10,000 nt of DNA from Flavobacterium sp. Its GTDB lineage: Bacteria > Bacteroidota > Bacteroidia > Flavobacteriales > Flavobacteriaceae. Under the pieces are notes generated by a model. The model did no database searches, was not told where the DNA came from, and saw only the letters and a list, made by a program, of their open reading frames with translations. Position numbers and translations under genes: made by a program. The stretch is from NCBI RefSeq assembly GCF_020217025.1, contig NZ_JAIWOF010000005.1, positions 1 through 10,000 on the forward strand, given 5' to 3'. How positions within the stretch are numbered: the stretch's first letter is position 1; each line of letters starts with the position of its first letter. Below, piece by piece: positions 1 to 8,907 of this stretch.

Positions 1-1043
1 TCTTCCACATCAATTTCAATAAACTCGTCGATTCCTTTTACTAACGAATGCGTTAATCGCTCTTGAACCGAACCGTTTCGCCATTCGGCAATAGCTTTTT
101 CATTCGATTTTATGTCACCTTTGAAACTTTCCGCTAATTCTAACAAACGTTCGGTAGCATCTTCTCTTCTATTTAGCAAAACATCTTCCACATGTTCCAA
201 TAAAACGGGGTCAATTTCATCGTAAATCTCTAACATTTCTGGATTTACAATTCCCATCGTCATTCCGTTTTGAATCGCATGATACAAAAATGCTGAATGC
301 ATTGCTTCACGCACTTTATCATTACCACGGAAAGAAAAAGAAACATTACTAACTCCGCCCGAGACATTTGCATAAGGAAGATTTTCGCGAATCCATTTGG
401 TTGCTCGGAAGAAATCTAAAGCATTTAATTTATGCTCTTCCATTCCGGTTGCGACTGGAAAAATATTAGGATCAAAAATGATGTCTTCAGCTGGAAAACC
501 AACTTTTTCAACTAATATATCGTAACTTCTTTTACAGATTTCGATACGTCTTTCGTAAGTATCCGCTTGACCATTTTCATCAAAAGCCATTACAATTACA
601 GCAGCTCCGTATCGTTTGATTAATTTAGCATGATGAATAAAAGTAGCTTCTCCTTCTTTTAAAGAAATCGAATTCACCACACCTTTTCCTTGAATCACTT
701 TTAACCCAGCTTCAATGATTTCCCATTTGGAAGAATCAATCATTACTGGTACTCGGGCAATATCGGGTTCGGCCGCGATTAGATTTAGGAATTTAGTCAT
801 CGCATAAACGCCATCTAACATTCCTTCATCCATATTGACATCGATGATTTGCGCGCCACCTTCTACTTGAGCACGTGCAATTTCTAAAGCTTCATCGTAT
901 TTTTCTTCTTTAATTAATCGAAGAAATTTTCTAGAACCAGTTACGTTTGTTCGTTCTCCAACATTTACAAAATTGGTTTCTGGAGTTACAATCAAAGGTT
1001 CTAAACCTGATAATTTTAAATATTTATCGGAATTATAACTCAT
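1..1043 (-). CDS. metH: Methionine synthase, pterin-binding/B12 half (partial, C-terminus off the left edge)
   Basis: This is the downstream half of a split cobalamin-dependent methionine synthase, which moves the methyl group of methyltetrahydrofolate through cobalamin to homocysteine in the cytoplasm. The open frame runs from the ATG at 1043 off the window, giving 347 complete codons. Residues about 1-290 form the pterin-binding TIM barrel, with the motifs [12 protein letters not shown] near residue 26, an [12 protein letters not shown] segment, [15 protein letters not shown], and a [14 protein letters not shown] segment. The last visible stretch, around [16 protein letters not shown], should begin the B12-binding cap region. 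The N-terminal homocysteine-binding domain is absent because it is encoded separately just upstream. In Flavobacteriia this half is usually close to 890 residues, so more than half should lie outside the window. It is probably co-transcribed with metH1 under the SAM riboswitch. The start fits the family and is preceded by an A-rich stretch. Confidence 0.95.
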
Positions 1044-1186
1044 TACTTATTCTTTTATAATGTTTCGCAACATCTTTCCAAAAGGTTTTACTGTTGCTCA
1101 CGTATTGGCAAACCCAACATCGTTGCGACTGTAAAAATGTTTCGAATTGTATTTTTATAAAATTATTTTTCATTGTATTTCTTTGC

Positions 1187-2173
1187 TTAAACCAAAACAC
1201 TTTCTCTTGGCTTGAATTCATTTGCTACCTCCGCAATTAATTTGATGTGTTCTGGCGTTGTTCCGCAACATCCACCGATGATATTCACTAAATTTTCTTG
1301 TAAATATTCGCGAATTAATTGTTGCATTTCTTCAGGCGTTTGGTCGTATTGTCCGAAGGCATTGGGTAAACCTGCATTGGGATGCGCCGAAATATTTAAT
1401 GAGGTGTTATTTCCTAATCGTTTCAAATATGGTTTCAATTGGTCAGCTCCCAAAGCGCAATTAAATCCAACGCTCAACAAAGGAATATGCAAAATTGAAA
1501 TCAAAAAAGCTTCCACTGTTTGACCCGATAATGTTCTTCCAGAAGCATCGGTAATTGTACCTGAAACCATTACTGGAATATCTATATTGCGTTCCTCTTT
1601 CACTTCTTCAATCGCGAACAAAGCGGCTTTTGCATTTAACGTATCGAAAATAGTTTCTACCAAAAGTAAATCGCTACCGCCGTCAATTAACGCTTCGACT
1701 TGTTGTTTGTAGGCGATTTTTAGGTCGTCGAAATTCACAGCTCGAAATCCTGGGTCATTTACATCAGGCGACATCGATGCTGTTCGGTTTGTTGGACCAA
1801 TGGAACCTGCTACAAATCTTGGTTTATCGGTAAATTCATCCGCAACTTCACGAGCGATTTTTGCGGATTGAAAATTCAACTCAAAGACCAAATCTTCCAT
1901 GTGATAATCCGCCATTCCGATAGTCGTTCCCGAAAAAGTATTGGTTTCTACAATATCAGCACCTGCTTCAAAATAAGCGCGATGTACCGATTTTACTGCT
2001 TCGGGTTGGGTGATGGAAAGTAAATCGTTATTTCCTTTTAATGGATGTGGAAAATCTTTGAAACGTTCGCCTCTAAAATCTTCTTCTTCAAATTTATAAC
2101 GTTGTAACATCGTTCCCATCGCTCCATCGAGCACGAGAATTCGTTTTTTGATTTCTTCTTGAATTTTTGACAT
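1187..2173 (-). CDS. metH: Homocysteine S-methyltransferase half of split methionine synthase
   Basis: A 328-residue protein equal to the N-terminal module of MetH, binding homocysteine through zinc and activating it for methylation by the partner protein encoded just downstream. The conserved start LDGAMGTMLQ lies at residues 14-23, GADIVETNTFSGT near 71-83, and the zinc ligands are Cys239 (GFNCALG) and Cys302/Cys303 (GGCCGTTPEH). The frame stays open upstream into the riboswitch. I chose the ATG at 2173 because it places LDGAMG at the family's usual distance from the N-terminus and because the extension is encoded by riboswitch and repeat sequence. A 143-bp spacer separates it from the second half. 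The split of MetH into a short and a long protein is common in Flavobacteriia and is not in itself a sign of damage. Expression is likely controlled by the SAM-I riboswitch upstream. Confidence 0.94.
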   Translation of the reverse strand: MSKIQEEIKKRILVLDGAMGTMLQRYKFEEEDFRGERFKDFPHPLKGNNDLLSITQPEAVKSVHRAYFEAGADIVETNTFSGTTIGMADYHMEDLVFELNFQSAKIAREVADEFTDKPRFVAGSIGPTNRTASMSPDVNDPGFRAVNFDDLKIAYKQQVEALIDGGSDLLLVETIFDTLNAKAALFAIEEVKEERNIDIPVMVSGTITDASGRTLSGQTVEAFLISILHIPLLSVGFNCALGADQLKPYLKRLGNNTSLNISAHPNAGLPNAFGQYDQTPEEMQQLIREYLQENLVNIIGGCCGTTPEHIKLIAEVANEFKPRESVLV

Positions 2174-2182
2174 ATTATCTTT

Positions 2183-2230
2183 TAACCGCAAAGCTCGCAA
2201 AGGATTTTCGCAAGGTTTGCAATGCTTTAC
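2183..2230. repeat. Degenerate GCAAAG repeat in the metH leader
   Basis: Four near-copies of GCAAAG (GCAAAG, GCAAAG, GCAAGG, GCAATG on the plus strand) are spaced 7-13 bp apart between the riboswitch and the metH1 start. The composition is more GC-rich than the surrounding leader. From memory of flavobacterial genomes, similar CGCAAAG-rich intergenic repeats are common. I could not search for copies, so its identity as a dispersed repeat is inference. It lies where the riboswitch expression platform should be. Confidence 0.5.
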
Positions 2231-2273
2231 TTTATTTAATATGTTATCAAGAAATTGGAGAAAATTTCCTTGG

Positions 2274-2374
2274 GTTATCTGCTTCCGATAAATCGGAATA
2301 GAATGTAGCACCTTCTACAAGTGTAGGGTTGCTAAGCTTTCATAGGGTCTATTCCCTCCAGCTTTCGTGATAAC
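2274..2374 (-). ncRNA. SAM-I (S-box) riboswitch upstream of metH1
   Basis: Read on the minus strand this matches the SAM-I aptamer closely. P1 is GUUAUC (2369-2374) pairing with GAUAAC (2274-2279). P2 arms are AAGCU and AGCUU, around the conserved GGAGGGA, CCC and UGAA elements. UAGCAACC follows, P3 is CUAC/GUAG, then comes the signature AGGUGCUA, and P4 is UUCCGAU/AUCGGAA. SAM-I riboswitches bind S-adenosylmethionine and normally switch off methionine genes when SAM is plentiful. No GC-rich terminator with a U-run is visible between the aptamer and the metH1 ATG about 100 bases downstream, so control at translation, or by a non-classical platform, seems more likely than intrinsic termination. 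Confidence 0.95.
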
Positions 2375-2397
2375 AAACACTATGTTTATGAACACCG

Positions 2398-2528: not shown

Positions 2529-3701
2529 TTATTCTAACGCTTGTTTTAAGTCATTAATTACATCTTGAACCGTTTCCAAACCAACAGAAACGCGCACCAA
2601 ACCATCTGTAATACTTACAGCTAAACGTTCTTCTTCAGTTAATTTGCTGTGAGTTGTGGAAGCTGGATGAGTTACAATCGAACGCGTATCACCTAAATTA
2701 GCAGATAACGAACATAGTTTGATTTTATCCAAAAACTTTCTTCCCGATTCAATTCCGCCTTTGATTTCGAAAGCTACGATGTTTCCAGCTAATTTCATTT
2801 GCTTTTTAGCGACTTCATATTGTGGATGCGATTTCAAAAATGGGTATTTCACAGAAGCTACATTCGGATGATTTTCTAAAAATTCAGCGACTTTTAAAGC
2901 GTTTTCGCAATGTTTTTCGATACGAACTGGCAACGTTTCCAAACTTTTGGACAACACCCAAGCATTGAAAGGCGACAAAGCGGGTCCAGTATTTCGGGAA
3001 AACAAATAAATTTCGCGAATTAAATCCGAACGACCAACAGTTACTCCACCTAAAACACGCCCTTGACCATCGATTAATTTAGTTGCGGAATGAATCACTA
3101 AATCAGCACCGAATTGAATTGGGTTTTGAATATAAGGCGTTGCAAAACAGTTATCGATGATTAAAATTAAGTTGTGTTTTTTGGCAATTTTCCCCAACAA
3201 TTCTAAATCTAAAATATCAACCGCTGGATTAGTTGGAGATTCTGCGTAAAGAATTTTTGTATTTGGTTGGATGAAATTTTCAATCGTTTCTGGTTTATTT
3301 ACATCGAAGTAACTCGTCGTGATATTCCATTTAGGAAAATATTTGGTAAATAACGTATGCGTCGAACCAAACACACTACTCGCTGAAACGATATGATCAC
3401 CTGAATTCAATAAAGCAGCAAAAGTAGAGTACACCGCTGCCATTCCTGTTGCGAAAGCGTAGCCATCTTCTGCTCCTTCCATTTGACAAATTTTTTCAAC
3501 AAATTCGGATGTATTGGGATTGGAAAATCGGCTGTAAATATTGCGTTCTTTTTCTTCCGCAAATGAAGCGCGCATGTCTTCGGCATCTTCAAAAATAAAA
3601 CTCGAAGTTAAATATAACGGAACGGAATGTTCTAAATATTGTGTGCGCTCTAATTGCGTTCTGATGGCTTGGGTTTCTAATCCTAAATTTTGATTGCTCA
3701 T
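2529..3701 (-). CDS. metZ: O-succinyl/O-acetylhomoserine sulfhydrylase (MetZ-like)
   Basis: A 390-residue, PLP-dependent cytoplasmic enzyme of the Cys/Met metabolism family. MetZ enzymes make homocysteine directly from an activated homoserine ester and sulfide. The PLP lysine is Lys208 in HSATKLIDGQGR. YSRFSNP (residues 56-62) supplies the Tyr and Arg that hold the cofactor phosphate, and DNCFATPY (183-190) includes the aspartate that pairs with the pyridine nitrogen. At the position where cystathionine gamma-synthases have YGGTY this protein has VFGSTHTLF (110-118), with Phe for Tyr, which favours MetZ. Length is typical. Because the operon encodes a MetX-type acyltransferase, the in vivo substrate is probably O-acetylhomoserine, though acyl specificity cannot be read from the sequence. 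The gap to thrA is 90 bp and contains a hairpin but no TAnnTTTG promoter, so it is probably the last gene of the metY operon. Confidence 0.88.
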   Translation of the reverse strand: MSNQNLGLETQAIRTQLERTQYLEHSVPLYLTSSFIFEDAEDMRASFAEEKERNIYSRFSNPNTSEFVEKICQMEGAEDGYAFATGMAAVYSTFAALLNSGDHIVSASSVFGSTHTLFTKYFPKWNITTSYFDVNKPETIENFIQPNTKILYAESPTNPAVDILDLELLGKIAKKHNLILIIDNCFATPYIQNPIQFGADLVIHSATKLIDGQGRVLGGVTVGRSDLIREIYLFSRNTGPALSPFNAWVLSKSLETLPVRIEKHCENALKVAEFLENHPNVASVKYPFLKSHPQYEVAKKQMKLAGNIVAFEIKGGIESGRKFLDKIKLCSLSANLGDTRSIVTHPASTTHSKLTEEERLAVSITDGLVRVSVGLETVQDVINDLKQALE

Positions 3702-3791: not shown

Positions 3792-6206
3792 TTATAATTT
3801 TTTTTCGGATAAGCGTAAAATATCGCCAAAAACACCTCTTGCAGTAACAGATGCTCCTGCTCCAGCGCCTTGAATTACTATAGGTTGCTCTCCGTACGAT
3901 TCCGTGTAAATTTCAAAAATAGAATCCGAACCTTTTAAGGAACCTAAAGCTGAGTTGGCTGGAACCGAAATTAATTTTACTTCTAACTTTCCTTTGTCCT
4001 GTTGTAAATCGCCAGATAATTCACCGATGTATCGCAATACTTCATTTGGACCTTGAGCGTCTTTGATGTTTTGGTAAATTCCATCTAATTCGGATAAGCG
4101 TTTTAGAAAATCAGTTGCACTTCCTTCGCGTAAGACTTCTGGAATTAAGTTTTGAATTTGGATTTCTTCGAACTCGTTTTGCAAATCTAATTCGCGTGCT
4201 AAGATTAACAATTTTCGACCCACATCGTTTCCGTTTAAATCTTCTCTTGGGTCGGGTTCAGTGAAACCTTTATCAATTGCTTCTTGTAAAACTTCGCTGA
4301 ATTTTTTGTCTTCTATCGAAAAATTATTGAATAAATAACTCAAAGTTCCAGAGAAAACACCTTTTATTTTGGTGATGTTCTCACCTGACAAATGCAGTAA
4401 TTTAATTGTATCAATTAACGGCAAACCTGCACCAACATTTGTTTCATACAAGTATTCTTTTTGGCTGTCTTTTAAGACTTTTCGCAGTTTTTTGTAGAAA
4501 TCAAAACTTACGGTATTCGCGACTTTATTAGAAGAAATCAAATCGAAACTATTTTCAGCTAACGAAATGTAATTTTCAATGAAAGCCGCACTTGCGGTGT
4601 TGTCAATTGCAATTAAATTTTCTAAATGGTGTTCTTTGGCGTACCCGATAATATCTTCTACTTTGTAATCTTGGCCTTTGTCTTCTAAAGTTGCTTTCCA
4701 ATTTTCGCTAATTCCAAATTTATTCAACAAGACTTTCTTTGAATTCGCAATCGCAAATACATTTAGCTTGATTCCTTTTCGTTTTTCGATATTTTTTGCC
4801 GATTCTAAAATTTGAGAAATCAAAGTTCCGCCAACCGTTCCGTGACCGAAAATAGCAATGTTGATTTTTTTCGCTACTCCAAAAATTTCACCGTGAATCA
4901 CATTTAATGCGCGTTTGAATTCATCTTGACTAATCACCAAACTGATGTTTCTTCCCGTAACGGTATTATTCAACAAAATTGGCGTGATCTTATTTCGAAT
5001 TAAAGCCGTGTATGGTTTGTGGAAATTCGTTAAATCTTGTCCGATAATCGAAATCACCGCTATGTTATCGTTTACTGAAATTTTATTGACATCTTTTGTG
5101 TAAAAATCGGTTTCAAACTCTTTTTCTAAACCAACCAAAGCCTTTGATGCTTTATCGGAATTTACCACCAAACCAATTCCTCTTTCCGAAGAACCTTGTG
5201 AAATGATGCTTACGCTAATGTCGTTTTCAGCCATTACTCGGAAAATTCGTGCATCAACACCTATTTTTCCTAATAAACCTCTTCCTTCTAAATTTATCAA
5301 CGACACATTGGTTAAAACCGAAAGCGATTTGATGCCTTCATTGGTTTGTTCCGAAGTAATTAATGTTCCATCATTTTCTGGATTAAACGTGTTTAAAATT
5401 CGTAACGGAATATTTTTTTCTACTAAAGGAATAATCGTTTTGGCATGTAAAATTTGCGCTCCAAAGTTTGCTAGTTCATTTGCTTCGTTGAATGATAAAC
5501 GTTCGATTTTTTTTGCATCTGCAACTAAATCAGGGTTTGCTGTGAAAATTCCGTCAACGTGTGTGTAATTTTGAAATTCTTCGGCGTTTAGATAATTCGC
5601 TAATAAGGAAGCCGTGTAATTACTTCCATTTCTCCCTAAAGTCGTGGTTTCGTTGTGTAAAGTTGAACCAATAAAACCCGTTACGACATTGACTTTATCT
5701 GTATTTTTTTCGAAATAATCTAACACATTTCGTTTTGAAACAGCGTCAATTGGTTGGGCATTACCGAAATTTAAATCTGTTCTTATTAATTGACGAGAAT
5801 CTGTGAATTGTGCCTTGATGCTGTTTTCGTTTAAAACGTTAGCCACATATTTTGCTGATAAAATTTCGCCATACGCAATAACTTGATCTTTGATTTTCTC
5901 ACTGTAATCGCCTAAAAGCGAAACGCCTTCTAATAATTTCTGCAAAACCGAGAATTCTTCCTCGAAGATGTTTTCTTTTAATCCTTCTAATTGGTATTTC
6001 TTGAATTGCTCAAAATCCGCTTGAAAATTAATGTTGGCTTGTGCTTTTTTTAGTAAAATTACCAATTCATCAGTAGCGTTTCCTCTTGCCGAAACTACGA
6101 CTGCGATGGGTTCGTTATTGAAATATTTTTGAGCAATCGTTTGAATTACTTTTTGTAATCCTTCTCCGTTTGCTAATGATTTTCCTCCAAATTTTAATAT
6201 TTTCAT
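3792..6206 (-). CDS. thrA: Bifunctional aspartokinase / homoserine dehydrogenase
   Basis: An 804-residue fusion that catalyses the first and third steps from aspartate to homoserine: phosphorylation of aspartate, and NAD(P)H reduction of aspartate semialdehyde. The aspartokinase covers residues about 1-285, with KFGGKS at 5-10 (most aspartokinases have Thr in place of the Lys) and TTLGRNGSN at 188-196. ACT-type regulatory domains cover about 300-440, including SIISQGSSE. Homoserine dehydrogenase begins with the dinucleotide motif FGHGTVGG at 453-460, followed by SSNKVANT (558-565), ETNVGAGLP (588-596) and PDPREDLNGNDVGRK (651-665). The 820-residue E. coli ThrA has the same layout. The ATG lies one base after the metX stop, so translation is probably coupled. 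Its position among methionine genes suggests that it supplies homoserine for this pathway. ACT domains in ThrA usually confer threonine feedback, which is not proven here. Confidence 0.95.
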   Translation of the reverse strand: MKILKFGGKSLANGEGLQKVIQTIAQKYFNNEPIAVVVSARGNATDELVILLKKAQANINFQADFEQFKKYQLEGLKENIFEEEFSVLQKLLEGVSLLGDYSEKIKDQVIAYGEILSAKYVANVLNENSIKAQFTDSRQLIRTDLNFGNAQPIDAVSKRNVLDYFEKNTDKVNVVTGFIGSTLHNETTTLGRNGSNYTASLLANYLNAEEFQNYTHVDGIFTANPDLVADAKKIERLSFNEANELANFGAQILHAKTIIPLVEKNIPLRILNTFNPENDGTLITSEQTNEGIKSLSVLTNVSLINLEGRGLLGKIGVDARIFRVMAENDISVSIISQGSSERGIGLVVNSDKASKALVGLEKEFETDFYTKDVNKISVNDNIAVISIIGQDLTNFHKPYTALIRNKITPILLNNTVTGRNISLVISQDEFKRALNVIHGEIFGVAKKINIAIFGHGTVGGTLISQILESAKNIEKRKGIKLNVFAIANSKKVLLNKFGISENWKATLEDKGQDYKVEDIIGYAKEHHLENLIAIDNTASAAFIENYISLAENSFDLISSNKVANTVSFDFYKKLRKVLKDSQKEYLYETNVGAGLPLIDTIKLLHLSGENITKIKGVFSGTLSYLFNNFSIEDKKFSEVLQEAIDKGFTEPDPREDLNGNDVGRKLLILARELDLQNEFEEIQIQNLIPEVLREGSATDFLKRLSELDGIYQNIKDAQGPNEVLRYIGELSGDLQQDKGKLEVKLISVPANSALGSLKGSDSIFEIYTESYGEQPIVIQGAGAGASVTARGVFGDILRLSEKKL

Positions 6207-6207
6207 T

Positions 6208-7173
6208 TTAATTAAATATAGGTTTAAGTATGTTGTTTAGTTGTTCAAATTCTATCAAGAACGCATCGTGTCCGTGAATGGATTTGATTTCGTGATAAAA
6301 TGAATAGTTTTTGTAGTTTTTGACTTCCTGAAAAGCGGTTTTGATTTCGTTTGCCGTAAAAAAATAATCGGTATCCACACTTATTAGATGAATATTCGAT
6401 GTGATGCTTTTGATGACTTCCGATTGATTTTTGTTTTTAAAAATATCTGTAGTTTTCAATAAATGATTCATGAGTTTGTAAGCCGAAAGTTGAAATCGAT
6501 TTTGCAATTTTTCTCCGTGATGCAACAACCAACTTTCCACTTGAAACAATCCTTCCGAATTTTGCAATTGGTTATGGAATTTTTCTTGTAATGATTCGGG
6601 TGTTCGATACAATAACATGGCGTGAATTCGGGCATCGTGAATTGGGTTTTTGGAATTATTCAGAATTAAATCTTGAATTAATACATTTCCAATCAACCAA
6701 TCAGAAGCTTTCCAATTGGTTGCTACCGGAATTAAATTCGCAATCGCTTTTGGACGAATCGCCGCCATTTCCCAAGCAATTGCTCCGCCTAAACTTCCAC
6801 CAATAACAGCAAAAACTTGATTCACTTTAAACGAATCGATTCCTTTCCAAAATAAATTAGCAATATCATAAGTGGTAAAATCTTGATAATTTTCAATCAA
6901 ATTTTCCGAATCTTGATAGCCGTTTCCAGGAATATTGAAAGCTAAAACTGCATATTTTTTGGTATCAATAATTTTCTCATCTCCAATTAACGATTGCCAC
7001 CAACCGTTTTCGCCAATAACTTGTGAATTTCCGGTCAAAGCATGATTCACTACCACCAAAGGCGCCGAACCAATCGATTGTCCAAACAATTGATAGGACA
7101 AAATCACTTTTGCTTGCACTACTCCATTTTGCAACGGAACATTTTGGAACACTATTTTTTGAATTGTACTCAT
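6208..7173 (-). CDS. metX: Homoserine O-acetyltransferase (MetX-type alpha/beta hydrolase fold)
   Basis: A 321-residue alpha/beta-hydrolase-fold acyltransferase that activates the hydroxyl of homoserine, most likely with acetyl-CoA. VVVNHALTGNS (residues 40-50) is the oxyanion-hole segment typical of MetX. GGSLGG (125-130) is the nucleophile elbow with Ser127. DARIHAMLLYRTPES (180-194) is a MetX family signature. The acid is probably Asp269 (VDTDYFF), and the catalytic base is His302 in GHDAFL. It is shorter than the roughly 350-380 residues of many MetX proteins, mostly through a short N-terminus and compact lid, but all the catalytic elements are present. A terminator-like hairpin sits about 10 bp upstream of the ATG, and thrA follows after one base. 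Acetyl versus succinyl preference cannot be decided from the sequence; the neighbouring metY favours acetyl. Confidence 0.9.
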   Translation of the reverse strand: MSTIQKIVFQNVPLQNGVVQAKVILSYQLFGQSIGSAPLVVVNHALTGNSQVIGENGWWQSLIGDEKIIDTKKYAVLAFNIPGNGYQDSENLIENYQDFTTYDIANLFWKGIDSFKVNQVFAVIGGSLGGAIAWEMAAIRPKAIANLIPVATNWKASDWLIGNVLIQDLILNNSKNPIHDARIHAMLLYRTPESLQEKFHNQLQNSEGLFQVESWLLHHGEKLQNRFQLSAYKLMNHLLKTTDIFKNKNQSEVIKSITSNIHLISVDTDYFFTANEIKTAFQEVKNYKNYSFYHEIKSIHGHDAFLIEFEQLNNILKPIFN

Positions 7174-7238: not shown

Positions 7239-8531
7239 CTAAACTAAATTTTGAACTGGCAATTTTTCGAAAACACTTTGTAAATCGGTTTTCAAGTCTT
7301 CTATATCTTCTAATCCAACGGATAAACGAATTAAATCTTTCGTTACTCCCGTTGTGATTTGTTGTTCTTCTGACAATTGTTGATGCGTTGTACTTGCTGG
7401 ATGAATAATTAATGATTTTGTATCACCAATATTAGCCAACAATGAGAAAAATTGGGTTTCATCGGCAACTTTTTTAGCAGCTTCGTAACCGCCTTTTAAT
7501 CCAAAAGTTACGATACCGCTTTGTCCTTCTGGTAAATATTCTTGAGCTAAATCATAATATTTTGACGAAATCAATCCAGGATAATTTACCCATGCCACTT
7601 CTGGACGTTTTTGTAACCATTTGGCTAATTCCAAGGCATTTTCACTGTGTTTTTTGATTCGGATAGCCAATGTTTCCAAACCTTGAATAATTTGAAATGC
7701 GTTAAACGGACTTAACGAAGCGCCCAAATCCCGTAATCCCTCGATTCTGACTTTTGCGATAAATGATGCAGCACCTAACACTTCATAATATTTTAATCCG
7801 TGATACCCTGCTGAAGGTTCTGTGAATTCTGGGAATTTTCCGTTGCTCCAATCGAAATTTCCTGCATCAATGATAACGCCTCCAAGCGAAGTTCCGTTTC
7901 CACCGATGTATTTGGTTAGGGAATGAATTACGATGTTGGCTCCGTGTTCGATTGGGTTAAGCAAAAAGGGGGTTGCCACAGTGTTATCCACAATAAAAGG
8001 CACTTTGTAGGTTTGTGCGGCTTTTGAAATGGCTTTTAAATCGAGTACATCTAATTTTGGATTTCCTAAACTTTCAGCAAAGAACACTCTTGTATTTTCT
8101 TGTGCTGCGTTTAAGAAGTTTTCTGGATTTGATGGATCTACGAATGTTGTAGTGATGCCTAATCTTGGCAAAGTCACGTTTAATAAATTATATGTTCCGC
8201 CGTATAAACTATTGGAAGCAACAATATGGTCACCAGCTTTTAATAACGTTAACAAAGCAGTTGAAATGGCTGCAGTTCCTGAAGCGGTTACGACAGCTCC
8301 AATTCCGCCTTCTAATTTGGCTAAGCGTTGTTCTAAGATATCGTTTGTTGGATTATTTAATCTTGTGTAAATAAAACCGGCTTCGGCCAAACCAAAAAGA
8401 TTGGCTGCGTGGTCAGAATTATTGAAAACGTAAGATGTGGTTTGGTAAATTGGAACCGCTCTTGTTCCAGCGTTTTTAGTTGTGTCGTGTCCTGCATGTA
8501 AAGCGTTTGTTGCAAATTTATTTGTGCTCAT
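7239..8531 (-). CDS. metY: O-acetylhomoserine sulfhydrylase (aminocarboxypropyltransferase)
   Basis: A 430-residue PLP enzyme of the Cys/Met metabolism family that forms homocysteine from O-acetylhomoserine and sulfide. The opening FATNALHAGHD and the early VPIYQTTSYVF (26-36) are typical of MetY. YTRLNNPT (55-62) and LYGGTYNLL (109-117) hold the cofactor and stack on it, and the PLP lysine is Lys207 in HSLTKYIGGNGTSLGG. The length fits MetY, which carries an insertion (about 218-250 here) that MetZ and cystathionine gamma-synthase lack. It is the first gene of the metY-metX-thrA-metZ set. The start at 8531 is preceded by an A-rich tract as expected for Bacteroidota. About 275 nt of leader between the proposed promoter and the ATG contains an attenuator with a Met/Cys-rich leader peptide and a second small Cys-rich ORF. 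Confidence 0.93.
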   Translation of the reverse strand: MSTNKFATNALHAGHDTTKNAGTRAVPIYQTTSYVFNNSDHAANLFGLAEAGFIYTRLNNPTNDILEQRLAKLEGGIGAVVTASGTAAISTALLTLLKAGDHIVASNSLYGGTYNLLNVTLPRLGITTTFVDPSNPENFLNAAQENTRVFFAESLGNPKLDVLDLKAISKAAQTYKVPFIVDNTVATPFLLNPIEHGANIVIHSLTKYIGGNGTSLGGVIIDAGNFDWSNGKFPEFTEPSAGYHGLKYYEVLGAASFIAKVRIEGLRDLGASLSPFNAFQIIQGLETLAIRIKKHSENALELAKWLQKRPEVAWVNYPGLISSKYYDLAQEYLPEGQSGIVTFGLKGGYEAAKKVADETQFFSLLANIGDTKSLIIHPASTTHQQLSEEQQITTGVTKDLIRLSVGLEDIEDLKTDLQSVFEKLPVQNLV

Positions 8532-8591: not shown

Positions 8592-8642
8592 TCAGCTACA
8601 CATTCGACAACATCGTCTTGGATTGTAAATGGCTATTTTCAT
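8592..8642 (-). CDS. Possible second leader ORF, Cys-rich (16 codons)
   Basis: An ATG at 8642 opens a 16-codon frame ending at TGA (8592-8594). Its second half reads PRRCCRMCS, so three of the last six residues are Cys and one is Met. The start lies in an A-rich context (AAAAAACACAACAGAACATG), favourable in Bacteroidota. It lies just downstream of the attenuator terminator and about 60 bp before metY. No intrinsic terminator follows it: the CTGA/TCAG stem after the stop is short and lacks a U-run. It may sense cysteine supply at the translation or mRNA-stability level, or it may be chance. I know of no named family for it. Confidence 0.4.
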   Translation of the reverse strand: MKIAIYNPRRCCRMCS

Positions 8643-8665
8643 GTTCTGTTGTGTTTTTTAGAAAT

Positions 8666-8693
8666 AAAAAAACCTCTGCTTTCGACAGAGGTT
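8666..8693 (-). terminator. Attenuator terminator in the metY leader
   Basis: Minus-strand AACCTCTG (8686-8693) pairs perfectly over 8 bp with CAGAGGTT (8671-8678) around a 7-nt loop, and the 3' arm runs into seven consecutive T (8666-8672). This is a textbook Rho-independent terminator. It sits 25 bp after the leader peptide stop codon and about 135 bp before the metY ATG, in the position of an attenuator rather than the end of a gene. Confidence 0.88.
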
Positions 8694-8740
8694 ATATTGA
8701 ATTAATTTATTTTTAAAATTATGCAATAGGTTTCCTCTGC
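8686..8740 (-). promoter_or_regulatory. Antiterminator pairing between leader codons and the terminator 5' arm
   Basis: The leader RNA segment CAGAGG (minus strand of 8734-8739, codons 17-18 of the leader peptide) is identical to the core of the terminator 3' arm. It can therefore pair over 6 bp, plus a G-U at 8740/8685, with CCUCUG (8686-8691), the terminator 5' arm. The two structures exclude each other. The terminator helix is longer (8 bp), so the outcome should depend on whether a ribosome covers codons 17-18. Confidence 0.75.
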
Positions 8741-8787
8741 GGATTGTTCCACATCATCATACACATATTGCACATTGTAAAGTTCAT
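8719..8787 (-). CDS. Met/Cys-rich leader peptide controlling metY
   Basis: A 22-codon ORF with ATG at 8787 and TAA at 8719-8721. It begins MNFTMCNMCMMMW, giving six Met and two Cys in 22 residues, with a run of three consecutive Met codons (10-12), and ends NNPQRKPIA. The ATG is preceded by an A-rich stretch (AAAAGAAATAGAAA) and lies about 20 nt downstream of the inferred transcription start. Position, amino acid bias and the overlap of codons 17-18 with an antiterminator arm fit a ribosome-stalling leader peptide. With scarce methionyl-tRNA the ribosome would halt near codons 10-12, leaving CAG AGG free to form the antiterminator. With ample supply it would reach the stop codon, cover that segment and let the terminator form. 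The peptide probably has no function of its own. Confidence 0.82.
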   Translation of the reverse strand: MNFTMCNMCMMMWNNPQRKPIA

Positions 8788-8813: not shown

Positions 8814-8821
8814 CAAAATTA
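8814..8821 (-). promoter_or_regulatory. -7 box of the metY operon promoter
   Basis: Minus-strand TAATTTTG matches the Bacteroidota -7 consensus TAnnTTTG exactly. Transcription would start near 8807, about 20 nt before the leader peptide ATG. The -33 region is T-rich but shows no clear TTG. Confidence 0.7.
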
Positions 8822-8907
8822 GATTTATTTTCTAAAATAAAAAAATAAATAGATTATTTTTCTAAATTTTGTTATTTTAATTTAAAAAATTAGATTATTA
8901 TTCTAAA
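8819..8907. promoter_or_regulatory. Three near-identical operator-like boxes at the metY promoter
   Basis: Plus-strand boxes AGATTTATTTTCTAAA (8821-8836), AGATTATTTTTCTAAA (8851-8866) and AGATTATTATTCTAAA (8892-8907) differ from each other by one to three bases. Each sits in the palindrome TTAGA-N7-TCTAA (perfect in the first and third, one mismatch in the second). Spacings of 30 and 41 bp are close to three and four DNA turns. The first box abuts the -7 element, which suggests repression by a DNA-binding protein. The region is very AT-rich, but an independent copy upstream of metH makes chance less likely. Confidence 0.65.

Follow-up and report, generated by a model that had tools for sequence, protein, structure and literature searches.

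A predicted ribosome-mediated attenuator with a Met- and Cys-rich leader peptide upstream of metY in Flavobacterium

In the window, i.e. the whole 10,000-nucleotide stretch of DNA analysed here, the metY gene is preceded on the minus strand by a leader that is best read as a ribosome-mediated, four-segment transcription attenuator that responds to charged Met-tRNA and, as a secondary input, to Cys; on comparative sequence evidence, we put the probability of this reading at about 0.9. Direct support is given by the leader ORF, by three helices, and by their conservation, covariation and geometry, as well as, in a small set of leaders, by a match between codons and pathway. The initial annotation had proposed a Met-codon-reading, ribosome-mediated attenuator before metY; the core of this proposal stands on the comparative evidence, but Met is probably not the sole signal, since leaders of this type mix Met and Cys codons in gene-dependent proportions. 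The element belongs to a family, often tandem, that heads several sulfur amino acid units in Flavobacterium.

The metY cluster in the window comprises the following features:
7239-8531, minus strand: metY, O-acetylhomoserine/O-acetylserine sulfhydrylase, the regulated gene (TIGR01326)
6208-7173, minus strand: metX-like homoserine O-acetyltransferase homologue, next after metY (best match TIGR01392, below cut-off)
3792-6206, minus strand: fused aspartate kinase/homoserine dehydrogenase, thrA type (NF006959, above cut-off)
2529-3701, minus strand: metZ-like O-succinylhomoserine sulfhydrylase homologue (below family cut-offs)
2272-2376, minus strand: SAM-I riboswitch upstream of metH (RF00162, 75.3 bits)

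The MetY protein scored 639 bits against TIGR01326 (cut-off, 495), and the metX-like protein 172 bits against the homoserine O-acetyltransferase model (cut-off, 500); the latter may represent a distinct family of homoserine O-acetyltransferase. Gene order on the minus strand is metY, metX-like, thrA-like, metZ-like and metH, and the SAM-I riboswitch before metH is a second regulator within the cluster. The metH gene is apparently split in the window (1-2311, minus strand) into an N-terminal part (1187-2311) and a separate ORF (3-1043) running off the window; the matching open frame comprises about 1,250 amino acids in genomes G018, G020 and G063.

The intergenic region that holds the metY leader is 461 nt long and contains these elements:
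8719-8787, minus strand: ORF1, Met/Cys leader peptide MNFTMCNMCMMMWNNPQRKPIA, 22 codons
8752-8760, minus strand: Met-Met-Met control codons 10-12 of ORF1
8738-8753, minus strand: protector hairpin (1:2), UGUGGA-ACAA-UCCGCA, -5.9 kcal/mol alone, with covariation
8734-8742, minus strand: segment 2, CCGCAGAGG, the antiterminator strand within ORF1
8671-8693, minus strand: intrinsic terminator (3:4), AACCTCTGT-CGAAA-GCAGAGGTT, -11.6 kcal/mol, whose 5' arm pairs with segment 2
8664-8670, minus strand: U-tract region behind the terminator stem

A Met/Cys leader plus terminator ahead of metY is confirmed: the annotated 22-codon leader with six Met (start included), two Cys, and Met-Met-Met at codons 10-12 is present in MNFTMCNMCMMMWNNPQRKPIA, an intrinsic terminator follows at 8693-8671 with its U-tract reaching 8664, and CAGAGG at codons 17-18 is a second copy of the 3' arm of the terminator and forms a duplex with the 5' arm (-12.5 kcal/mol). 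The stall site had been placed about five codons before the antiterminator; the measured distance is shorter, as the last Met codon ends 11 nt before the antiterminator duplex, i.e. less than four codons away. An ORF with 15-35 codons and at least one third Met plus Cys (counted after the start codon; 7/21 as the threshold for ORF1) arose in none of 20,000 block-shuffles of the 461-nt region, and of 56 such ORFs across the window ORF1 is the top-ranking one. For the 122-nt leader, the folding energy is -29.3 kcal/mol (z = -3.86 against dinucleotide shuffles; 0/200 shuffles as good).

Segment 1 (UGUGGA) starts within Met codon 12 and pairs with segment 2 (UCCGCA), and segment 2 has two alternative partners in mutually exclusive helices, i.e. 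segment 1 upstream or the terminator 5' arm. By the size of its footprint, a ribosome stalled on the last Met codon would cover segment 1 and a ribosome at the stop codon would reach segment 2. In the proposed mechanism, RNA polymerase would start just upstream of ORF1, with a ribosome following; when Met- and Cys-tRNA are plentiful, the ribosome would reach the stop codon and cover segment 2, the 3:4 terminator would form, and metY would be off. With scarce Met-tRNA, the ribosome would stall at Met codons 10-12, covering segment 1 and leaving segment 2 (CCGCAGAGG) free for segment 3; this pairing would prevent the terminator from forming, so that metY would be transcribed. Should no ribosome be present, 1:2 and 3:4 would both form and transcription would stop. 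Four parts of this scheme are inferred: where transcription starts, that ORF1 is translated, that ribosomes stall at the Met codons, and that read-through changes. The initial annotation had seen no separate protector hairpin and expected the antiterminator to form without translation; the UGUGGA/UCCGCA hairpin at 8753-8738, which covaries over 102 sequences, corrects the first statement and thereby reverses the second, i.e. the untranslated default should be termination.

Covariation of the protector was assessed on 102 distinct segments, with 9 of 127 leaders excluded from the counts for a weak segment 2. Compared with shuffles that ignore the relatedness of the sequences, 87.1% of cells were paired (81.3% shuffled; 0/500 as high), 43 cells were changed on both sides (13.1 shuffled; 0/500), the covariation value was 0.317 (0.227 +/- 0.012 shuffled; 0/500), and six pairs showed any double change (4.0 shuffled; 19/500); controls with slid partners gave a covariation of at most 0.160. 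The pair count had the same outcome on 87 of the 102 segments (15 omitted by hand) as on all 102. A stricter control, in which the 5' side was exchanged and the register re-searched, gave a weaker signal of the same direction: the native protector outperformed only 63.4% of 1,756 chimeras. Of 43 native protector hairpins, only 18 lay above the 95th percentile of shuffles.

For the antiterminator (2:3), swapping terminators between leaders with different cores lowered the pairing in 85.1% of 6,860 swaps. The CAGAGG duplication, which the initial annotation regarded as the antiterminator, covaries in its favour: the 2:3 helices differ between clades, with pairing kept. The commonest helix is GCAGAGG/CCTCTGC (CAGAGG/CCTCTG core), and variants are GCGAGGG/CCCTCGC (L181), CGCAGCG/CGCTGCG (L192), TGTGGG/CCCACA (L072), CAGGAGGG/CCCTCCTG (L301) and, by eye, GCAGCG/CGCTGC (L350 and L353). 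The sequences of the predicted protector and antiterminator differ between clades, and complementarity is mostly kept. Tested locus by locus against codon-shuffled leaders, complementarity gave modest results in 138 att1/att2 rows (see below), which include a few non-leaders: p was at most 0.05 in 83 rows, 0.05-0.1 in 23, and above 0.1 in 32.

The geometry was compared among 118 leaders: ORF1 is 22 codons long in 75, the start of segment 1 falls 1-2 nt inside the last Met/Cys codon in 86, segment 2 follows this codon at 11 or 12 nt in 79 (11 in the window), and 15 nt separate the end of segment 2 from the end of the stop codon in 58. The parts of an attenuator are present: a leader ORF with pathway codons, an intrinsic terminator between this ORF and the gene, a putative stall site placed to cover segment 1 yet free segment 2, a covarying antiterminator exclusive with the terminator, and a covarying protector exclusive with the antiterminator, the latter weaker in the re-searched chimera control.

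The conservation of the Met-rich ORF, on which the initial annotation had staked its reading, was borne out in relatives: in the best 80 of 564 matching stretches (metY loci mostly labelled Flavobacterium), one or two Met/Cys-rich ORFs were found de novo within 900 nt before metY in nearly all, mostly with a terminator behind. Covariance models were built for the first element (R1, att1; 50 sequences) and the second (R2, att2; 53 sequences); within 1,100 nt of metY, the att1 model matched in 59 of these 80 best loci, att2 in 67, both in 46, and at least one in 80, the models having been trained partly on these same loci. Within the genus, 111 of 150 genomes gave an R1 match (39 had no att1 match under strict filters); in a sample of 296 genomes from the order, 54 did, many of these matches being weak. 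The predicted attenuator is apparently widespread in the genus Flavobacterium, often as a tandem pair. Only the first element is kept in the clade of the window (L001-L011) and in two other clades (L044 and L071); behind it, the window contains one further ORF:
8592-8642, minus strand: ORF2, MKIAIYNPRRCCRMCS, 16 codons, Cys-rich, no terminator found behind it in the window clade

ORF2 may be what is left of the second Met/Cys-rich attenuator, or a diverged version of it; 67 of the 80 relatives carry this second attenuator. ORF2 is conserved among L001-L011 apart from minor differences, and recurs with diverged flanks in F. haoranii (L044, PRRCCRMCC). A wider role of the 'CCRMC' of ORF2 as regulatory peptide was considered and rejected: the degenerate pattern occurred in only 4 of 60 genomes. 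In three of these, namely the genome of the window and two close relatives, it matched the metY locus itself, and the fourth match falls within a coding sequence.

The attenuator chassis also heads cysH, cysE, metB/C-like, metH, metX and other units. Of 88 R1 matches, 78 were classified by the first downstream gene in a reference set (the 10 with E > 0.003 were omitted; genes outside the set are invisible to this classification, and names derive from NCBIfam and Pfam matches): 27 leaders precede metY, 18 metX, 15 an OsmC-like gene, six cysH(DN), three metB/C-like genes, two a TonB receptor, two cysE(K), one metH, one an HSD-like gene, and three none; an att2 match follows right after the R1 leader in 45 of the 78. 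Counting Met and Cys after the start in ORF1, plus ORF2 where found, the cysH/cysE leaders (n = 8) contain 54 Cys to 26 Met and the metB/C and metH leaders (n = 4) two Cys to 29 Met; the Cys share per leader is 0.43-0.88 in the former and 0-0.14 in the latter, without overlap (Mann-Whitney p = 0.004, for small groups totalling 12 leaders that were formed after seeing the data). The 27 metY leaders have a median Cys share of 0.35, and a ninth cysteine-type leader (L044, cysK-like frame downstream, by eye) reads MRFTCCSACTCMG. The leader codons seem to follow the regulated pathway, with Cys enriched ahead of cysteine genes and almost only Met ahead of metB/C and metH, and the candidate attenuator seems to have been retuned gene by gene through codon change.

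In a post hoc comparison, His, Thr, Tyr and Trp were more frequent in the OsmC-type leaders (n = 15; in four of them an Opp ATPase comes next) than in 49 met-type leaders, which hints at multi-amino-acid versions of the attenuator. Four attenuators lie before an OsmC-like gene plus an oligopeptide ABC transporter ATPase (L181, 3977-4108; L316, 2976-3108; L317, 221-357; L319, 226-362); such leaders are of varied amino acid composition, as in KCHTNFYTMW, and possibly represent a general starvation sensor. An att1 match directly before cysH was found in 2 of 30 loci (L194, L195) and directly before metH in 0 of 30 loci; to judge from coordinates in some genomes, cysH and metH would mostly lie inside larger clusters headed by another attenuator. 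The seven out-of-genus cysH loci (L361-L367) gave neither an att1 nor an Rfam match, and the G059 family comprises only two genomes, one with cysH.

These OsmC/Opp-type leaders rich in His, Thr, Tyr and Trp, together with family members that have few Met/Cys codons and with some metX and 4 of the 27 metY leaders that have no Met/Cys run, would fit a leader that responds to amino acid shortage or to slow translation in general, with Met and Cys codons as only part of the signal. We consider this unlikely, as adjacent Met/Cys codons stand in ORF1 of the window leader and of the other 23 of the 27 metY leaders, usually right before the protector, and as Cys- or Met-richness tracks the regulated pathway.

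A Met/Cys-tuned attenuator also has to be weighed against a Met/Cys-rich peptide that is itself active, either as a small protein binding a metal, e.g. copper, or as a nascent arrest peptide sensing metal or redox state. Met/Cys-rich peptides are able to bind soft metals, which would suit such a role. A nascent exported protein is reported to sense copper (PMC9973294). We nevertheless judge this possibility to be quite improbable: the spacing of the Met/Cys residues varies, the composition tracks a cys or met downstream gene, and the C-terminal half of the peptide shifts frame between clades while the RNA stays. In the ORF1 tail, the same CCGCAGAG nucleotides are read as Pro-Gln-Arg (PQR) or Ser-Ala-Glu (SAE) in two frames, depending on the clade; comparison of the clades indicates that the 3' end of ORF1 is constrained as RNA, the RNA being kept while the reading frame shifts. 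In the first part of ORF1, the Met/Cys codon fraction is 0.346 in frame 0, versus 0.139 and 0.016 in the other frames and 0.056 in shuffles; frame 0 is the richest in Met/Cys in 99 of 109 distinct ORF1s, and their Cys codons are synonymously mixed (120 TGT, 62 TGC).

SAM-I riboswitches bind SAM, and Met-specific T-boxes bind tRNA, directly and without a ribosome. Both represent RNA control of methionine genes, as here; no match to SAM-I (RF00162) or a T-box was found in the metY leader. Of 51 out-of-genus metY loci, 33 were sampled; in 29 of these, metY is preceded by a SAM-I riboswitch in sense orientation. Of the other four, two have R1 attenuators (L350, L353), L356 has a Met-rich ORF plus terminator and matches R1 weakly (24.6 bits), and L357 has neither. 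Three SAM-I carriers (L354, L355, L358) also have a short ORF that passes the Met/Cys filter, without an R1 match. A SAM-I core pattern, which recovers 24 of the 29 known cases, was found in 0 of the 80 Flavobacterium-type loci within 900 nt before metY, and an Rfam scan of 20 sources (13 such metY loci) yielded no sense SAM-I before metY. An attenuator and a SAM-I riboswitch have apparently been exchanged in place at metY, one presumably replacing the other. At metX, the two can be stacked: SAM-I lies between leader and gene in 11 of 17 scanned metX-first leaders (of 18; L185, L187, L188, L286, L292, L297, L302, L305, L312, L318, L322) and is absent in six, and the Met run is lost in several of the stacked leaders (L297, L305, L322).

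SAM or T-box riboswitches were also considered as candidates for the metY leader and rejected, as Rfam gave no match to them in the window leader or in the relatives scanned; the same holds for the Flavo-1 RNA (RF01705). A metabolite-binding riboswitch (SAM, Met or homocysteine) with an incidental ORF would be in keeping with SAM-I in the same position at most sister-genus loci examined, but is highly improbable, as no Rfam model matches the window leader or, in sense, the region before metY in the relatives scanned, the helices are short with clade-variable sequences, and the Met/Cys codon bias is strong and confined to one frame.

One further element lies upstream of ORF1:
8814-8821, minus strand: TAATTTTG, promoter -7-like element, 26 nt from the ORF1 start

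The Bacteroidetes promoter -7 consensus is TAnnTTTG. Among 57 distinct leader-upstream regions, xxxxTTTG begins 26-38 nt ahead of ORF1 in all 57, and a complete TAnnTTTG occurs within 80 nt upstream in 19, where shuffles predict 3.4; 15 of these 19 stand at 28-36 nt. A constitutive terminator that insulates metY from the upstream gene, for which the stem at 8693-8671 would be good enough as an intrinsic terminator, is scarcely credible, given that the upstream gene already has its own terminator-like site at 8969-8946 (minus strand), that the promoter-like element lies between the two terminators, and that the alternative helices covary.

Amino acid attenuation is textbook knowledge for Trp, His, Leu, Ile/Val, Thr and Phe, and its classical anatomy includes a segment 1 that overlaps the control codons. 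The metY leader resembles the enterobacterial attenuators (trp, his, thr, leu, ilv, phe) in its control-codon peptide and its 1:2, 2:3 and 3:4 helices, and differs from them in that it reads Met/Cys, occurs in Bacteroidota, is often tandem, and represents one chassis over several units. Attenuator motifs for His, Leu, Thr and Trp in Rfam, plus Ile/Val and Phe, are named in the available text of PMC3766115, and none for Met or Cys. For F. psychrophilum, i.e. the same genus as the metY leader family, hints of attenuation by leader peptides ahead of amino acid operons were reported in 2021, and pheA and hisG are named among the conserved structured 5' elements (PMC9723704, main text, in which methionine is absent and cysteine appears once, in a protease name); the class is therefore foreshadowed in the genus, and the metY leader of this species (L020) may coincide with one of the 64 structured regions in that study. 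In Actinobacteria, sulfur/cysteine genes are preceded by leader ORFs that contain runs of Cys, similar to the metY leader, and, as far as the available text of PMC1262725 goes, the mycobacterial cases are without conserved terminator-like hairpins and no conserved RNA structure precedes methionine operons. The beta-proteobacterial metXZ element, with putative alternative structures and a terminator before metX/metZ, is unlike the metY leader in its pseudoknot-type conserved blocks, and no leader peptide is described in the available text (PMC4239095). No description of a Met leader-peptide attenuator was found among the open-access papers searched; the Met/Cys version would be what is new, and the mechanism class of attenuation is known.

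A broader reading, to which we give slightly better than even odds, is that the Flavobacteriales possess a reprogrammable attenuator chassis, i.e. one RNA design that was duplicated in tandem and over the sulfur regulon and re-specified by control-codon swaps (nearly Met-only for metB/C and metH; Cys-rich for cysHDN and cysEK; mixed for metY; His/Thr/Tyr/Trp-enriched, possibly multi-amino-acid, for OsmC/Opp). At metY this design would have taken the place of SAM-I, and at many metX units it stands in series with it, which would make the sensing of charged tRNA and of SAM alternative or joint controls of one set of genes. A regulon-wide and often tandem Met/Cys attenuator would extend attenuation to the sulfur amino acids and bring it into an understudied phylum, the Bacteroidota; elongator Met-tRNA would be an unusual signal, because Met also starts every protein. 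The apparent exchange of attenuator and SAM-I would represent a natural experiment on RNA regulators of one gene replacing each other, and the way codons differ from cys to met units a specificity code open to direct testing.

Further observations concern single loci. Near-direct repeats TTTAGAAAAATAATCTA and TTTTAGAAAATAAATCTA (about 8815-8870, minus strand) overlap the promoter region in the window clade, by eye, and are possibly an operator for a transcription factor. Flavobacterium-type metY loci were found on contigs labelled Bifidobacterium breve (L018), Candidatus Nitrotoga (L034) and Lentimicrobium (L072), which are probably mis-binned. Two loci of family f2 (L356, L101) have Met-rich ORFs and terminators before metY, but their peptide differs and an antiterminator is not evident. 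In L001, L016 and L072, a SAM-II riboswitch in antisense orientation is found upstream of metY, and the divergent neighbour of metY in several loci resembles metK, by eye.
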